Made by a program: the position numbers and the translations under genes. A stretch of DNA of 49,890 nucleotides from Fluviicola sp. (GTDB lineage: Bacteria > Bacteroidota > Bacteroidia > Flavobacteriales_D > Crocinitomicaceae): positions 1-49,890 of the forward strand of contig JAJTEO010000006.1 in NCBI GenBank assembly GCA_021300395.1, read 5' to 3'. Position 1 is the first letter of the stretch; each line of letters starts with the position of its first letter. Of the stretch, positions 1 to 6,271 are shown in pieces. The notes beneath the pieces are model-generated. The model did not search any database. It saw only the letters and a list, made by a program, of their open reading frames with translations, and had not been told where the DNA came from.

Positions 1-2203
1 TTCGTTTATCACTGTTTAATACAAAACCAATTTTAACATCTAAACGATAATAATTAGCGTAATATGAACCGTAAATATCAGTTGATCTTTGTTCATGTCC
101 TATCAAATTTGAAGCTTCAACATCAATTGCAGTATATGCTCTTCCGCCAGCGTTTGTGTATTTAACATCTAATGAAAATTTATTTATTTTTTTCGCTCCA
201 ACTTTCCATTCCTTACCAGCAAGGATGTTAAAAACATATCTACCAATGAATGCTGTATTTCTTTCTACACCGTCACTTCCTTTGTATTTTGAATCGTAAA
301 CTGAAGTTGTAAACAAACCATAATATCCTTTGCTGAAAAACTTTTCTACAGTTAATTCTATTCCGTAATTTGTTCCAGTTCCTTCGTTTACTAAACTATC
401 TTGTAAATCAGTTTTAAAAGTTGACCCTGTATTTAGCATTGAATAACTTCCTGAATAAGAGGTAACAGGAACATTGTATAATGATTGATAATAAGCTTCT
501 GTTTTAATTCTCCAATCCTTAGTTGGTTGGTAAGAATAACCCAATACCAAATGGTGACTTTTTGTAAAATCTAAGTTTTTATTGTTGTAAACGGTATTTC
601 CACTTGCATCTTTTGATTGAAGAAAATATACGTTGATTGGTTGTGTTTGAGAATGTAAACCGTATCCAAACGTAATATTACTTTTTTCACCAGTGATATA
701 TGTTAATCCAAATCTTGGTTCGATTGATTTTGAATTGTTCAGAGCAAAATATTGAGAATGCACTCCGATATTCATTTTAAATCTGTTAGAGATAGTATAT
801 TTTAAATGAACATAGGCTTGCGCTAAATTTGTAGAACTGTTATAATCCCAAATTTGTTTGTAACTATCATTTAAATTTTCTTTTGTTTTATAATTCAAAT
901 ACAAGCCAATAATTTCATCTTGAAGTCCAATTTTTAAGAACAATTTAGAATTTAATTTTGTATTGTATGAAGTGTTTAAATTGTAACTTGTTTTTTCAAC
1001 CGTATTTTCTTCTTTTGAGAAAGTAGTAAGGGTGAAATTATCAGTTTTATATCCAATTTGCTGCGTATAAGAATAGTTTACCCCAATTGATGAGTTAAAA
1101 TAAGAACGTTTGTTCACTTGCTTAAAATGATTGATGCCCATTATGCCTATTTTACTTGAAAAATCTACCTTATTTCCATTACCGTAAAGTGTATTATCAT
1201 TTCCACCCCCGATGTTGATGGTGCTATTTGCTAAAATTCCAAACGTAGAAAACTTACCAAATTTAGTTGTTCCACCATTTAATTTATATGATAAATCTTG
1301 ATAAGAAGGAGTGGCAGTTGTTCCAATATTTATACCGACTGCTTGTGCAACACTAGCTAATGCATGACGATAACCAATTAAGTAAGATGAACCTTTAGCT
1401 TTATTGATTGGGCCTTCAGTAGTTGCTTCAGCACCTGTAATAACTCCAATTTGTAAAGTAGTTTCACGTTTTTTATTATTACCGTTTCGCAAACCTAAAT
1501 CGAAAACACCTGAATTCGCATTTCCATATTCTGCAGGGAAAGCAGAAGTGAAAAAGTCTGAAGTTTTTAGAAGATTTGTATTTAATGCACTTACAGCTCC
1601 ACCCGTCGTTCCAACTGCTGCGAAATGATTTGGATTAGTCACATTCAAACCATCGATTCTCCATAATACTCCAACAGGTGAATTTCCACGAATAACAATA
1701 TCATTTCGACTATCATCTGGTGCACTAACACCTGCAAAATTGGCAACCAATCGAGCAGGATCACTTCTTCCTCCAGCATATCTATTGACTTCCTCCATTG
1801 AAAAAGTACGGGCACTCACAGTTGCTAATTTGTTGATTGAATTCGATTTATCATTTGCTTTCACAACAACTTCATCTAATTTATTGTTAAACAATTCTTC
1901 CATTTCAATATCAAGTATTACTTCTTTTCCTGAAGTAACAATTACATTTGGAATAAATACATCTTTATAACCAGTAAATAAAACCAAAACATCATATCTA
2001 TCAGGCAAGATTCCGTTTAATGAATAATTACCTACACTATCAGACAAAGTTGCTTTTTGAATTGAATTGATTTGAACAGTTGCACCAATAATTAGTGTTT
2101 TTGAAAGTTTATCGACAATTGTTCCTCGAATGTTTTGTTCGCTGTTTTGTGCATTTAATATCAAAGTGCACATAAAGAAAATTACGGATACTATTTTTTT
2201 CAT
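1..2203 (-). CDS. TonB-dependent outer-membrane receptor, C-terminus cut by window edge
   Basis: The frame is open from the ATG at 2203 to base 1 (about 734 codons), so only the last barrel strands are missing. The order is a signal peptide (MKKIVSVIFFMCTLILNAQ), a carboxypeptidase-like regulatory domain (about residues 24-110, IRGTIVDKLS), a plug domain (about 120-240, with DIVIRGNSPVGVLWRIDG) and then a beta-barrel rich in alternating aromatic residues. Proteins of this class import a ligand across the outer membrane using TonB energy. The substrate cannot be read from sequence. Its upstream region shares a 47-bp element with the YHYH/MORN/SCO operon immediately upstream on the same strand, which suggests common control and possibly a metal-related role. 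Family certain, ligand unknown. Confidence 0.9.
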   Translation of the reverse strand, partial: MKKIVSVIFFMCTLILNAQNSEQNIRGTIVDKLSKTLIIGATVQINSIQKATLSDSVGNYSLNGILPDRYDVLVLFTGYKDVFIPNVIVTSGKEVILDIEMEELFNNKLDEVVVKANDKSNSINKLATVSARTFSMEEVNRYAGGRSDPARLVANFAGVSAPDDSRNDIVIRGNSPVGVLWRIDGLNVTNPNHFAAVGTTGGAVSALNTNLLKTSDFFTSAFPAEYGNANSGVFDLGLRNGNNKKRETTLQIGVITGAEATTEGPINKAKGSSYLIGYRHALASVAQAVGINIGTTATPSYQDLSYKLNGGTTKFGKFSTFGILANSTINIGGGNDNTLYGNGNKVDFSSKIGIMGINHFKQVNKRSYFNSSIGVNYSYTQQIGYKTDNFTLTTFSKEENTVEKTSYNLNTSYNTKLNSKLFLKIGLQDEIIGLYLNYKTKENLNDSYKQIWDYNSSTNLAQAYVHLKYTISNRFKMNIGVHSQYFALNNSKSIEPRFGLTYITGEKSNITFGYGLHSQTQPINVYFLQSKDASGNTVYNNKNLDFTKSHHLVLGYSYQPTKDWRIKTEAYYQSLYNVPVTSYSGSYSMLNTGSTFKTDLQDSLVNEGTGTNYGIELTVEKFFSKGYYGLFTTSVYDSKYKGSDGVERNTAFIGRYVFNILAGKEWKVGAKKINKFSLDVKYTNAGGRAYTAIDVEASNLIGHEQRSTDIYGSYYANYYRLDVKIGFVLNSDKR

Positions 2204-2299
2204 AAAGGCAAAATAAAATTTAATCAATTGGATTTTCCACAATTGATCAATCAAATTTCCATTATTAGGTCTATTTACTAAAATTTAGTTTCCTTAACT

Positions 2300-2346
2300 A
2301 GTTTAAATATTGGGTTAAGTTGTAGAAAATTTATGTTGGGTTGTAT
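2300..2346 (-). promoter_or_regulatory. Shared upstream element, copy 1 (before TonB receptor)
   Basis: This 47-bp stretch aligns without gaps to 4471-4517, with 35 identical positions by hand count. The best conserved parts are GGTTAAGTTGTA and GTTGG. Inside it the tetramer GTTG recurs 16 bp apart in both copies, like a direct-repeat operator. It lies about 100 bp before the receptor start. The regulator is unknown. Confidence 0.55.
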
Positions 2347-2422
2347 AAAAAAGTGAGGTATCAAAAATCGAAGTTTTCTTCGTTATTAGTTAATTTTAAT
2401 AATGTATATGTGTTATTCTAAA

Positions 2423-3043
2423 CTATTCAACTTTCAAAACTTTTATATCATTTATTAAATTTTGCATACTATTTGGATCTAGACCATTATAAATTCCACG
2501 AATATGTCTATCCTTATCTATAAGTATAAAATTTTCGGTATGTAAAAACACATCATTTCCTTTTTTTACACCTTCATCTTCCTCAACGAAATAATATTTA
2601 CGCCCTAAATCATAGATTTCATTTTTTTCTCCAGTTAAAAGTTTCCATCTTTTGCTATTGACTTTTTTTTCTTTTGCATACTTTCTTAAAACAGATACAT
2701 TATCTTTCTCAGGAGTTACGCTATGAGATAAGAGTAATATATCATCGTCATTTATAAATTCTTTTTGTAAATCACCCATACTGTTTGTCATTTTAGGGCA
2801 AATACCCGGACAACTTGTAAAAAAGAAATCTGCAATACAAATTTTACCGTCAATATCTTTCTCAGTAAAAACTTTGTTGTCCTGATTTTTAAGTTTAAAA
2901 GGTCTAATTTGATGAAAATTTTTATCGTTCGTCATTTCCCATTTGGGAGTGAAATCAGGTGTGTTATAATAGGGAAGTTTTCTTGTATTATCAGTACAAG
3001 CCATCATTAGTAATAAAGAAAGAATAATAGAGTAATATTTCAT
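2423..3043 (-). CDS. SCO1/SenC family copper chaperone lipoprotein
   Basis: This is a 206-residue thioredoxin-fold protein of the SCO family. The N-terminus is a lipoprotein signal ending in MMAC (Cys16), so the protein should be anchored in the periplasm. The copper ligands are visible: Cys78 and Cys82 in SCPGICP, and His168 in FLHTENFILIDKD, followed by the family's RGIY segment. SCO proteins deliver copper or reduce cysteines for cytochrome oxidase and other cuproproteins. This copy is not beside oxidase genes. It is the last gene of a three-gene unit whose start overlaps the MORN gene stop (ATGA), so translational coupling is likely. A second canonical SCO lies at 21.9 kb in the oxidase cluster, which suggests that this one serves another target. 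Confidence 0.92.
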   Translation of the reverse strand: MKYYSIILSLLLMMACTDNTRKLPYYNTPDFTPKWEMTNDKNFHQIRPFKLKNQDNKVFTEKDIDGKICIADFFFTSCPGICPKMTNSMGDLQKEFINDDDILLLSHSVTPEKDNVSVLRKYAKEKKVNSKRWKLLTGEKNEIYDLGRKYYFVEEDEGVKKGNDVFLHTENFILIDKDRHIRGIYNGLDPNSMQNLINDIKVLKVE

Positions 3044-3663
3044 TTTAGTTTTTCATTTTTCAAGGTGTAACAAAGTGCAGCTTTTTGGAGACCATATTTC
3101 ACACCATCTCTTACTTCATAGTTAATATATAGCTTTCCATTCTCACGCCAAGCTTTTTGCATACCATTTTCTTTGTCATCAGAAAACGTTAATTCATAAT
3201 ATTTTTTTCCGCTTTCATACCATTGTTTTTGTATGCCTTGGCGACTGTCATCTAGATACATATAATCAAATTTCATTTTTTCATTTTCCCAAAAGCCAAA
3301 ATGTCTGCCGTAGCTTAATCCATTTTTATAGCTACGTTCTGTTTCTAATTTACCATTTGGAAAAAAAGTTTTAGTGGTACCATGTTGTTCCCCTTTATAG
3401 TAAGAACCTATGTACTTGAGTGAATCGGATATATATAATTCTTTTATAAAACCCGAATAGGGCTTATAACCAAAGTAATAAACCCCATTCTTCAATTTCA
3501 ATTTTTTATTGTTTACTAAAATAGTATCGTTTGGTATTTTCGATACATCAATATTTTCAAAAATATTCATTGCTATATCCTTTTTTGGTTGTGAGCAACC
3601 AAATGTAATACTGCAAAAAATGACGAAAATTAAACTATTTAGTGAACTTTCCTTTAGTACCAT
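3040..3663 (-). CDS. MORN/YwqK-like repeat lipoprotein
   Basis: This 207-residue exported protein has a lipobox (FGCS, Cys23). From about residue 75 it carries repeated G-x-x-x-x-W/F-x-E/P-N-G-K units (FFPNGKLE, WENEKMKF, WYESGKKY, WRENGKLY), the pattern annotated as MORN variants or YwqK-type antitoxin repeats. Repeats of this kind usually form a beta meander and mediate protein contacts. The start overlaps the end of the upstream YHYH gene by 29 bp, and the stop overlaps the SCO start by 4 bp, so the three genes are one transcript. A lone Cys sits near the C-terminus (ALCYTLKNEKLK). No antitoxin function is implied by this context. A scaffold or partner for the SCO/YHYH proteins is only a guess. 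Confidence 0.75.
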   Translation of the reverse strand: MVLKESSLNSLIFVIFCSITFGCSQPKKDIAMNIFENIDVSKIPNDTILVNNKKLKLKNGVYYFGYKPYSGFIKELYISDSLKYIGSYYKGEQHGTTKTFFPNGKLETERSYKNGLSYGRHFGFWENEKMKFDYMYLDDSRQGIQKQWYESGKKYYELTFSDDKENGMQKAWRENGKLYINYEVRDGVKYGLQKAALCYTLKNEKLK

Positions 3664-4405
3664 AGTAACTACCTGCTTTCAAAATGTAATAACCAGAATT
3701 TAAATAATTTACATTGGATGCGTGATAGTGATAAATTCCATTTGGAAAATCTTCTGTCGGTCCGTAATGACCTCCATATTCATCTAATGTAGGATACTCG
3801 CCAGTCATATCTTTTCTTCCATAAATCGGAAAACCATCACGCAAGAAACCAATCAATTTTGCATCATCTACGGATGTGTATTTACCTGTTGTATGGTAGT
3901 GATAATTTTTACCAGGAGTTGGGTGTGCACCAGAATTGTCAAAAGTTGATAATGTCATAGCATCAAGTGAAACGTTACCACCTTCTCGATCATTGTAAAT
4001 AGCTACACCATTCAACGCCATTCCAATTTCACCTAATGAAGTTTCTTCTTTTGAAGATGCTTCTGCTGGATTTGTCGGAATTTTCATTACATAAGTTTGA
4101 GATTCCATTGTCGTATTTGCGTTAGGTGCATGACCTGATGGGAAATCTTCATATAAGGCATGACCTGAACCCCAGTAGGGCGTTTTATGTTCTGGCAGTC
4201 CATTGCTTTTTAGAATAATTCTCTCCTTTCTACCAATACCTTTTGTAGAAATGGAAACGGCACTTGAGAATTTTGCTTTTACAACATCTGTAATAGATAC
4301 ATCTCCAGTTGAAACAATTTTACCTTTGTTACAAGAATAAAAAGTTGTACCCAAAACAAGCAAGCTTAAACTTACAATAGATAATTTTACTTTGTCCATC
4401 TTCAT
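3635..4405 (-). CDS. YHYH-domain exported protein
   Basis: This is a 256-residue protein with an N-terminal signal; a Cys in FYSCNKG suggests a lipoprotein. The C-terminal half is a YHYH domain: KNYHYHTTGKY near residue 167, GFPIYGRKD and GIYHYHAS near 225. The histidine-rich motifs look like a metal site, but the biochemical activity of the family is not established to my knowledge. It is the first gene of the YHYH-MORN-SCO unit. The upstream region carries the 47-bp element also found before the TonB receptor at the left edge. Pairing with a copper-type chaperone suggests periplasmic metal handling, which is inference. Confidence 0.85.
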   Translation of the reverse strand: MKMDKVKLSIVSLSLLVLGTTFYSCNKGKIVSTGDVSITDVVKAKFSSAVSISTKGIGRKERIILKSNGLPEHKTPYWGSGHALYEDFPSGHAPNANTTMESQTYVMKIPTNPAEASSKEETSLGEIGMALNGVAIYNDREGGNVSLDAMTLSTFDNSGAHPTPGKNYHYHTTGKYTSVDDAKLIGFLRDGFPIYGRKDMTGEYPTLDEYGGHYGPTEDFPNGIYHYHASNVNYLNSGYYILKAGSYYGTKGKFTK

Positions 4406-4470
4406 TTTTATTTAGTCTTTAACTAAATTCCGATTTTAGATTAACTAATTAAAATCAAATTATTCTAAAC

Positions 4471-4517
4471 AGTTTGAAAACAAGGTTAAGTTGTATGAAA
4501 TTTTAGTTGGACTGAAT
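4471..4517 (-). promoter_or_regulatory. Shared upstream element, copy 2 (before YHYH operon)
   Basis: Gapless partner of 2300-2346 (35 of 47 positions identical by hand count), again with GGTTAAGTTGTA and a second GTTG 16 bp on. It begins 66 bp upstream of the YHYH start codon. This suggests a common regulator for the receptor and the operon; its identity is unknown. Confidence 0.55.
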
Positions 4518-4589: not shown

Positions 4590-5387
4590 TCAACCGTTAC
4601 TTCCGTCATAGAATTCAATATACCAGAGATCATTAATTTTATATAGCCAAGTTCCACTATTTAAAAATGAAACTTCTCTTTGTTTCACTCTAAAATTTTT
4701 TTCAGGGATATAATGAAGAGTATATGTTTTTCCATTTAATCTGTAGGAATTAAGAATAATTGTGTAATTCTTTAAACCATTTTGCTCATTGCTAATCCTT
4801 ATAATTTCGAATGAATTCAAAATATCAACAATTTCATTTGGGACTTCAATTTTTGGTGATGAATAACCAACACTATATTTGTTTGTTTTCTTATTAAGAT
4901 AAACCTCTGTATACTCCCAACTAAAGGATATTTTACCGTGTAAATTCTGAACACTATCAACAAAAGATATAACCTTGTTCTGATTTTCCGAAAAGTCTTC
5001 GACAAACTCTTCTGCTTTTTTTATTGCCCAAAAGTCACTGTTTGAATTATATTTAAAAACAATATTATTGAATGCTTCATTTTTTCTTTGGGCTATTAAA
5101 GTTATTAAAATTCCAAGACAAAAAATAAAAGGTAAAAATGTAAAAAGCCTATTTCTAAATGGTAATGAGTAAATTTTAGATTTCAGATTAACTATCCAGA
5201 ATGTAATTAATAATAATACTAACAAATGAATGATCAATTGCCATTTAATTATATTATAACTATAACTTGTTTGCTCCCAAGCACCATTGTCTGATAGAAA
5301 TGTTACAACTATAAAAGATATAGAAATTGCAAAAGTTAAGTAGTTTAAATAGTTGACTAATTTTTGTATTTTACTTCTTGTTTCCAA
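4590..5387 (-). CDS. Unknown membrane protein with soluble C-terminal domain
   Basis: No family recognised. The first 100 residues hold three hydrophobic segments (about 13-30 LTFAISISFIVVTF, 48-66 WQLIIHLLVLLLITFWIV and 83-99 LFTFLPFIFCLGILITLI). A charged, soluble region of about 160 residues follows, rich in Asn, Tyr and Lys and with several predicted beta strands. It starts 31 bp inside the end of the upstream secreted-protein gene, so the two genes are probably cotranscribed and coupled. Codon use looks like its neighbours. A role with the upstream protein at the envelope is possible but unsupported. Confidence 0.6.
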   Translation of the reverse strand: METRSKIQKLVNYLNYLTFAISISFIVVTFLSDNGAWEQTSYSYNIIKWQLIIHLLVLLLITFWIVNLKSKIYSLPFRNRLFTFLPFIFCLGILITLIAQRKNEAFNNIVFKYNSNSDFWAIKKAEEFVEDFSENQNKVISFVDSVQNLHGKISFSWEYTEVYLNKKTNKYSVGYSSPKIEVPNEIVDILNSFEIIRISNEQNGLKNYTIILNSYRLNGKTYTLHYIPEKNFRVKQREVSFLNSGTWLYKINDLWYIEFYDGSNG

Positions 5388-6271
5388 ATGATTTTCCCTT
5401 TTTTAATGTTAATAGCATATGTAATTGGGAAAGTGTCTTGTCCGTAGCCTGGACAAGATGCAAAATCCTCATTAAAAACAGTTACATATAAAACTTTATC
5501 ATTAATGTTTATTAATGGTGGATTATTGTAATAACTAAAAATACTGCCGTCTAATGAAATTTCCCATTTTTCGCTGGTAATTTTCCATTTGTAGCTAGCT
5601 GAATCTTTGTTTAATTCAATGTTTCTATTTGTTATTTTAACCTTTGTTTTCTCATTTAAAAATTCAAATTGTTCACTTGGTAAATTATTCAATTTATCAT
5701 ATTTCTTTTCTAAATAATTTTTGAAGAAAACATATTTTGTAAAGTCATCGTGATATTTCACTTCGTTGATAAGTCCAATTGTGTCTAGGTTATAGAGTGT
5801 ACTTTTACCATCCCCTTTTTTGTTAATGGTTATTTCGTATGCAAATTTTCTGTCACCGCATAGAAAATATTCCAAAACAGTATTATTGTTTTGAGAAAAT
5901 GGGAAATATAAAGCACATTCATTTTCGTTCGAGCATGGATAGTCAAGTTTGCTTTTTTGTCTGTAAGTTGCATTACAAGACATAAAGTCATAATACCTCT
6001 CATCCCATATTAAATTTAATGACGTATCTTTTTTGATTTTTCCGTTTTCAGAAATAAGAACATAATTTAAATCAAATTCTTTATGATTATTGAAAACGTC
6101 CATTAGTCCTCCATTAAATTCTGTTCTCAATAATATTATGTCACCATTCGAAGATAAAACCTGTCTATCAACTATTCTTGAATTTGGCCCACAAGGTTGA
6201 GCAAATACAGTTGTAAAGTTTATCAAATAAAAACTGAAAAGAATTATACTATTTATGGTTTTTCTATTCAT
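5357..6271 (-). CDS. Unknown secreted Cys-containing protein
   Basis: No family recognised. This 304-residue protein begins with a clear signal peptide (INSIILFSFYLINFTTVFAQ, cleavage likely after TVFAQ). The mature part contains about seven cysteines (PCGPN, FMSCNATY, YPCSNENEC, FLCGD, SCPGYG), an unusual number for this AT-rich genome, so periplasmic or surface disulfides are likely. The end (FPITYAINIKKGKIIWKQEV) resembles a beta-propeller-like strand, but a propeller assignment is not supported. It overlaps the start of the downstream membrane-protein gene by 31 bp. A 10-bp direct repeat, AATTAATATT, lies upstream at 6306 and 6323. Confidence 0.6.
   Translation of the reverse strand: MNRKTINSIILFSFYLINFTTVFAQPCGPNSRIVDRQVLSSNGDIILLRTEFNGGLMDVFNNHKEFDLNYVLISENGKIKKDTSLNLIWDERYYDFMSCNATYRQKSKLDYPCSNENECALYFPFSQNNNTVLEYFLCGDRKFAYEITINKKGDGKSTLYNLDTIGLINEVKYHDDFTKYVFFKNYLEKKYDKLNNLPSEQFEFLNEKTKVKITNRNIELNKDSASYKWKITSEKWEISLDGSIFSYYNNPPLININDKVLYVTVFNEDFASCPGYGQDTFPITYAINIKKGKIIWKQEVKYKN

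Follow-up and report, generated by a model that had tools for sequence, protein, structure and literature searches.

A predicted LytTR-type operator shared by a TonB-dependent receptor gene and a YHYH-MORN-SCO cassette in Fluviicola sp.

Introduction

Genes for TonB-dependent receptors can stand in operon with their own control genes, either of the FecR/ECF type or, for SusC, in the form of hybrid two-component systems. The locus described here displays the same linkage between receptor and control genes. It differs, however, in that the probable control genes encode a separate LytS-type kinase and a LytTR regulator, and in that a second operon lies behind the same predicted site. That operon includes a protein with the PF02630 domain, CxxxC motif and His of the SCO1/SenC copper chaperones, found here in operon with YHYH and MORN proteins.

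According to the available text of PMC6193735, LytTR sites consist of two 9-bp repeats, in most cases separated by 12 bp (for example ACCACTTAC-12-ACCACTTGC), which precede autoregulated operons, and 10–13 bp is given as the canonical distance in the available part of PMC11347149. The window element ACAACCCAA-12-ACAACTTAA fits the sites in these texts in form, and partly in letters. Like the AgrA and HdrR/BrsR operators, as far as the available parts of PMC6193735, PMC11347149 and PMC4227749 describe them, it comprises 9-bp direct repeats, 12 bp apart, upstream of the candidate promoter of a presumably autoregulated operon. Conversely, the half-site is ACAACYYAA rather than forms like ACCACTTAC, and what follows is a candidate Bacteroidetes-type promoter with a TonB receptor and a SCO cassette downstream. 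In the LRS-like operons of Bacteroides, the same text of PMC6193735 places the repeats 11 bp before TGTA-19-TATCTTTG. Common to these LRS operons and the system proposed here is a feedback arrangement in which the repeats precede the operon of the regulator itself, but LRS operons combine the regulator with an inhibitory membrane protein, whereas here it is paired with a PF06580 kinase and carries a receiver domain.

Among the matches listed from the openly licensed PMC literature, no paper was found on the combination of YHYH-MORN-SCO with a TonB receptor. The present analysis supplies a candidate regulator, binding site and regulon for this widespread set, so that its signal and cargo become directly testable, and suggests a site-prediction rule for receptor-linked LytTR systems in Bacteroidetes.

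Genes of the window

The window (the whole analysed stretch, 49,890 nucleotides) is contig C123 of genome G000, which comprises 2.52 Mb in 173 contigs and is 83% complete. The following genes are considered:

2..2203, minus strand: TonB-dependent receptor, first 734 residues, running off the contig end (Pfam CarboxypepD_reg and Plug)
2423..3043, minus strand: SCO1/SenC protein with CxxxC and a distal His (PF02630, E 2.6e-27; CxxxC and His aligned in 1xzo)
3040..3663, minus strand: MORN_2 repeat protein, its start overlapping the YHYH end (PF07661, E 1e-9)
3635..4405, minus strand: YHYH protein, gene 1 of the cassette (PF14240, E 1.9e-19)

Counting the window and 79 loci fetched with YHYH, the YHYH, MORN and SCO families occur in 77, 77 and 75 of 80 loci, respectively, and the trio is consequently a widespread unit. 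It is the SCO protein alone that suggests a possible role of the cassette in copper or metal handling. The copper receptor OprC carries the metal motif CxxxM-HxM (available part of PMC11213822); the 734 available residues of the window receptor contain no CxxxM, no HxM and a single Cys (residue 12). NCBIfam assigned no name at E 0.001 to the YHYH, MORN and SCO proteins or the receptor, nor to the kinase described below.

The AlphaFold model of the YHYH protein is confident (mean pLDDT 89.9), and its comparison with solved structures returned no Foldseek match at E 0.001, nor did any of 432 chains reach Z 2. The sequence had no match in the PDB at E 0.1, and a 56-row profile retrieved just five matches there, all at E 0.013 or worse (three to engineered proteins and two to a viral capsid). 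Judging from the model, the fold may be undescribed. The structure was set aside as a clue to the ligand, a solved-structure match being absent.

Upstream of the cassette, at 4590-6271, the window holds two genes without a Pfam match, where the related bin G008 (L009, L063) has other genes. A contig titled Candidatus Kuenenia stuttgartiensis (L062) encodes a YHYH protein 99% identical to that of the window; the next relative is titled Flavobacteriales, and the label therefore looks wrong.

A direct repeat before both operons

A sequence-only reading of the window had reported that 2300-2346 and 4471-4517 align without gaps at 35 of 47 positions. The match was reproduced; it lies above 300 dinucleotide-shuffled pairs (25 to 32 identities), and no other ungapped pair of 47-mers from the two intergenic regions matches better. 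The core described in that reading, GTTAAGTTGTA-N10-GTTG, stood as well, in that its exact form occurs in the window at these two places only; at ≤3 mismatches there is one further window match, with 2.44 expected by chance. The second GTTG 16 bp away, on the other hand, does not mark the repeat period, as the two GTTGs are out of register and the period is 21 bp.

On the plus strand, the register at the receptor site sets GTTAAGTTGT (from 2314) against GTTGGGTTGT (from 2335), at 21 bp. Because both downstream genes lie on the minus strand, the element is read towards the genes as a direct repeat with a 21-bp period, i.e. ACAACCCAAC-ATAAATTTTCT-ACAACTTAAC at the receptor and TCAGTCCAAC-TAAAATTTCAT-ACAACTTAAC at the YHYH gene:

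2314..2344, minus strand: predicted LytTR-type operator of the TonB receptor, ACAACCCAAC (2335-2344) and ACAACTTAAC (2314-2323), period 21 bp
4485..4515, minus strand: predicted LytTR-type operator of YHYH-MORN-SCO, TCAGTCCAAC (4506-4515) and ACAACTTAAC (4485-4494), period 21 bp

The operators are separated from the start codons by 110 bp (receptor) and 79 bp (YHYH). In both, the repeats are 12 bp apart (period 21), and a pair of direct repeats of about 9 bp is the form of a LytTR operator. The distal half of the window YHYH site is weak; its G008 counterpart, TCAACCCAAC, is closer to the consensus.

The sigma-A -7 consensus is given as TAnnTTTG in the available text of PMC9723704, and two low-confidence boxes of this kind were found behind the repeats:

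2280..2287, minus strand: receptor promoter, low-confidence -7 box candidate TAAATTTT, 26 bp behind the repeat
4456..4462, minus strand: cassette promoter, low-confidence -7 box candidate TAATTTG, found by eye and one base short of TAnnTTTG

When promoter boxes were compared between sites, those other than the window's having been picked with period 21, 12 of 19 sites from outside the window clade proved to have a TAnnTTT box 32-33 bp behind the repeat, as against none of five window-clade rows. Within the clade the distance is 26 bp at the window and G009 receptors and 52 bp at the G008 receptor; before the window-clade YHYH gene no TAnnTTT match was found, and a shorter box is discernible by eye at 22 bp. 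The window promoter spacing differs from that of its relatives. By analogy, the box at 32-33 bp would fit the Bacteroides arrangement of repeats 11 bp before TGTA-19-TATCTTTG. The main text of PMC9723704, a transcription map of F. psychrophilum, contains no mention of LytTR, SCO1, YHYH, copper or 'direct repeat'.

Specificity in the window genome and its close relatives

The window genome was compared with two closely related bins, G008 (96% complete) and G009 (a near-identical relative). Genome-wide, CAACNNAACNNNAATTTNNNACAACTTAAC with ≤3 mismatches matched three times in G000, twice in G008 and three times in G009, as against 0, 0 and 1 for the reversed-pattern control. Two matches with 0-2 mismatches in each bin are the receptor and YHYH promoters (0 and 2 mismatches, respectively, in G000). 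The third match has 3 mismatches in both G000, where it falls within an ORF, and G009. The random hits all over the genome that would speak against a shared operator did not appear, these two promoters being the only matches at ≤2 mismatches in the three related bins. The exact 10-mer ACAACTTAAC occurs six times in G000, and the four copies outside the two sites overlap ORFs. Both sites are kept in G008 though the far-side DNA differs; at the YHYH site the gene-side DNA is conserved as well. The specificity for two promoters in three bins supports the earlier proposal, in which one regulator reads a direct-repeat operator and thereby unites receptor and cassette in one regulon.

A kinase-LytTR pair behind the receptor in G009

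On contig C194 of G009, a PF06580 histidine kinase, a LytTR response regulator, a TetR gene and an efflux gene come in this order after the C-terminus of the receptor. Pfam analysis placed a PF06580 kinase next to a PF00072+PF04397 regulator in the loci from G009 (L205), G637 (L218) and Runella (L087). Using the Runella L087 regulator as query, a 59% identical protein was found in G000, on contig C170, and a 58% identical one on G009:C194. Since C170 ends within the same kinase as is found on G009:C194, and the window contig ends within the receptor, the window receptor would very probably head the same receptor-kinase-regulator operon, with the contig join taken from G009. In the G008 bin, which has both sites, the search with the Runella regulator revealed no close regulator (best E 2.5e-23). 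Contigs end inside the receptor in G008, in the window and at G009:C230, and the receptor C-termini on C194 and C230 differ at several residues, so that a mixture of strains, or a second copy, may be involved. On G000:C170 (L203:177-3160), TetR, outer membrane efflux and HlyD/CusB-like genes lie directly behind the LytTR regulator, the TetR gene having been scanned in the G009 copy.

Ten LytTR matches are present in G000. A paralogous receptor-kinase-LytTR operon on its contig C60 (L204:6341-10505) has a 21-bp repeat of its own, ACAATTCATC...ACAGTTCAAC; the C60 regulator is 48% identical to that of Runella, and the C60 receptor 57% identical to the window receptor. Six regulators from operons with the ACAACYYAAC repeat cluster apart from this paralog (support 85/83 and 82/86, below the tool's 95/80 mark).

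The repeat in Runella and other genomes

The 79 related loci and the window were scanned on both strands for two copies of CAACNNAAC at 20-22 bp, with 13 of 14 letters matching. Eight matches resulted. All six with period 21 are located at receptor or YHYH operons, namely two on the G008 contig (L063) and one each at the window receptor and in Runella L087, L101 and L125, while the two with period 20 (L073, L104) fall within ORFs. The window YHYH site was missed, its weaker distal half being under the threshold. In the three Runella loci fetched, the repeat lies upstream of YHYH-MORN-SCO followed by two genes of shared families, which in L087, the locus analysed with Pfam, are a PF06580 kinase and a receiver-LytTR regulator. 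In L125 the site and YHYH are separated by a 330-residue gene.

The pattern ACAACYYAAC-N11-ACAACYYAAC, with ≤1 mismatch, was then run over 617 genomes (222 of Runella's family and 395 of the phylum) and gave 11 matches (eight and three, respectively). The reversed pattern gave 26 in the same genomes; the number of matches is thus not above chance, and only their places speak. Seven of the 11 lie before a receptor or YHYH operon: four before the orthologous receptor (G270, G370, G637 and the window) and three before the YHYH operon (G268, G269 and G270). The other four comprise three within ORFs and one before a ClpB-like gene (by eye). Runella G270 carries the repeat before both units, in perfect form before its receptor ortholog (68% identical). 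Together with the kinase-LytTR pair in the G009 receptor operon, this supports the claim that one regulator reads both sites. A two-mismatch match on G268:C44, also found in G269, was rejected, with no receptor, YHYH, SCO or LytTR gene seen nearby by eye.

Receptor orthologs and cassettes without the repeat

Searching 395 genomes of the class and 222 of Runella's family with the receptor yielded 14 orthologs outside the window clade, at 67-71% identity. The repeat is present at four of them (G637, G312, G270 and G370, scoring 14-16 of 16) and absent from the other ten, several of which have AAGG/CATCTAA-like promoters by eye. The receptors of G282, G297 and G306 adjoin apparent LTXXQ and ECF sigma factor genes. 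Behind the site in G637, the receptor is followed by a YHYH protein, a 208-residue protein, a polysaccharide deacetylase, the kinase and the LytTR regulator. The order in G370 is receptor, 336-residue protein, kinase and regulator, with the receptor and regulator frames broken, and in G312 it is receptor, 330-residue protein and, by eye, the start of a kinase-like gene.

The receptor of G973 is followed by YHYH and then by MORN-like and SCO-like genes, and in both G282 and G297 receptor and YHYH share a strand within 4 kb, the intervening ECF-like genes being on the opposite strand. Receptor and cassette therefore tend to co-locate even without LytTR. A YHYH search at E 1e-10 in 13 of the 14 ortholog genomes (all except G270) gave a match in eight and none in G249, G197, G1140, G291 and G298; the sole match in G1103 is weak (E 5e-20) and to a 539-residue frame. 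The YHYH genes closest to that of the window in G637, G370 and G312 lie elsewhere in the genome and lack the repeat (best scores 10-11 of 16); in G370 and G312 they come after apparent ECF sigma, anti-sigma and LTXXQ genes. A LytTR regulon of two units is accordingly seen in the window clade and Runella G270. G268 and G269 carry the site at YHYH, with a listed receptor match of just 43% identity in either genome.

The ECF sigma family occurs in 39 of the 79 cassette loci, 26 of which also hold an LTXXQ-like family while 13 have ECF alone (Pfam was applied to L075 only). A regular expression of the AAGG-N17-21-TCTAA type, run on the 79 relative loci, matched before YHYH in 5/26 loci with both families, 0/13 with ECF alone, 0/3 with LTXXQ alone and 3/37 with neither. 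Against a background of 20/1580, these counts represent a weak signal for ECF-type promoters.

The predicted regulon and alternative readings

On sequence grounds, the element is very likely the operator of the LytTR response regulator encoded behind the receptor, which would activate both the receptor-kinase-regulator and the YHYH-MORN-SCO operons. The shared site fits one regulator, encoded behind the receptor in G009, and receptor and possibly copper-handling cassette are most likely switched together. In the proposed mechanism, the membrane PF06580 histidine kinase and the receiver-LytTR regulator are encoded directly behind the TonB receptor gene, and the kinase would phosphorylate the regulator on a signal. 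The regulator would then bind both repeats as a dimer and activate its own receptor-kinase-regulator operon, a positive feedback suggested by site placement and the literature, as well as, presumably, the YHYH-MORN-SCO operon. For the receptor, the model envisages import of a ligand, perhaps copper in complexed form, with periplasmic handling of the metal by SCO together with YHYH.

The site could instead be read by another of the LytTR regulators of G000, such as that of the C60 operon. The ten LytTR matches in the genome and the 48% identity of the C60 regulator to Runella's leave room for this, but the C60 promoter has a different repeat of its own and its regulator falls, with moderate support, outside the group with ACAACYYAAC operators, which makes the reading improbable. 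More improbable still is that the conservation reflects an ECF sigma promoter (-35 ACAACTT, -10 GTTTAG) rather than an activator site. The family is present in 39/79 related loci, and 5/26 of those with LTXXQ have AAGG-N-TCTAA before YHYH. However, the element is duplicated at a distance of 21 bp and reappears at operons that include a LytTR pair, 12/19 of the relatives' sites have a sigma-A-like -7 box 32-33 bp behind, and no ECF factor was detected among the six window proteins scanned around the sites. The ECF promoter reading was dropped on the 21-bp period and the Runella kinase-LytTR operons.

Hardly more is to be said for an AraC-type, Crp-type or other regulator, which we rate slightly lower again. 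AraC half-sites also repeat at 21 bp, and the DNA upstream of YHYH in Runella L087 contains a cNMP-binding (Crp-like) gene whose family is also represented in L101. Against this, no AraC-type protein was found among 26 proteins scanned with Pfam, Crp sites are palindromes, unlike the direct repeat, and it is the LytTR pair rather than the Crp-like gene that is common to the operons of G009, G637, G370, G312 and Runella. Finally, chance, or a promoter copied without shared control, is barely credible: 35/47 was reached over AT-rich DNA and the gene-side DNA at YHYH is conserved in G008, yet 0/300 shuffles reach 35, G008 retains both sites amid differing far-side DNA, and a repeat of the same form exists in Runella.

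With the LytTR operator as the preferred reading, a broader proposal can be put forward tentatively, at slightly less than even confidence. A receptor with its own LytS-type kinase and LytTR regulator would use a shared repeat to govern an SCO cassette located apart from it, and in the various Bacteroidetes this receptor-cassette module would stand under either a LytTR pair or an ECF sigma/anti-sigma/LTXXQ set, i.e. two unrelated types of signalling exchanged on one pathway of outer-membrane uptake and metal handling.

Paralogous and distant receptors

Besides the C60 operon, a second tier of 14 receptors was found at 52-56% identity. Ten of the 11 with a downstream kinase score 15-16 of 16 for a 21-bp pair of ACARYTYA, a pattern that was set after viewing these promoters and is thus not blind; in the eleventh, L238, the pair sits inside a misplaced ORF start. 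None of the three receptors without a kinase reaches 15-16 (scores 10-12), and a score of at least 15 was obtained in 0/2360 shuffles. Among 31 distant receptors (41-48% identity) given loci, from longer match lists, none scores above 14. A downstream kinase is present at 16 of the 31 by the same motif test, none of them at 15 or more, and the kinase alone is therefore no predictor of the repeat. The link between repeat and kinase holds in the 52-56% tier, not beyond. In the Flavobacterium YHYH clusters L067:1-4000 and L068:600-4000, a kinase-family gene adjoins (PF06580 in L067), and some genes are preceded, by eye, by different 21-bp repeats resembling TTCACAGA...TTCACTGA.
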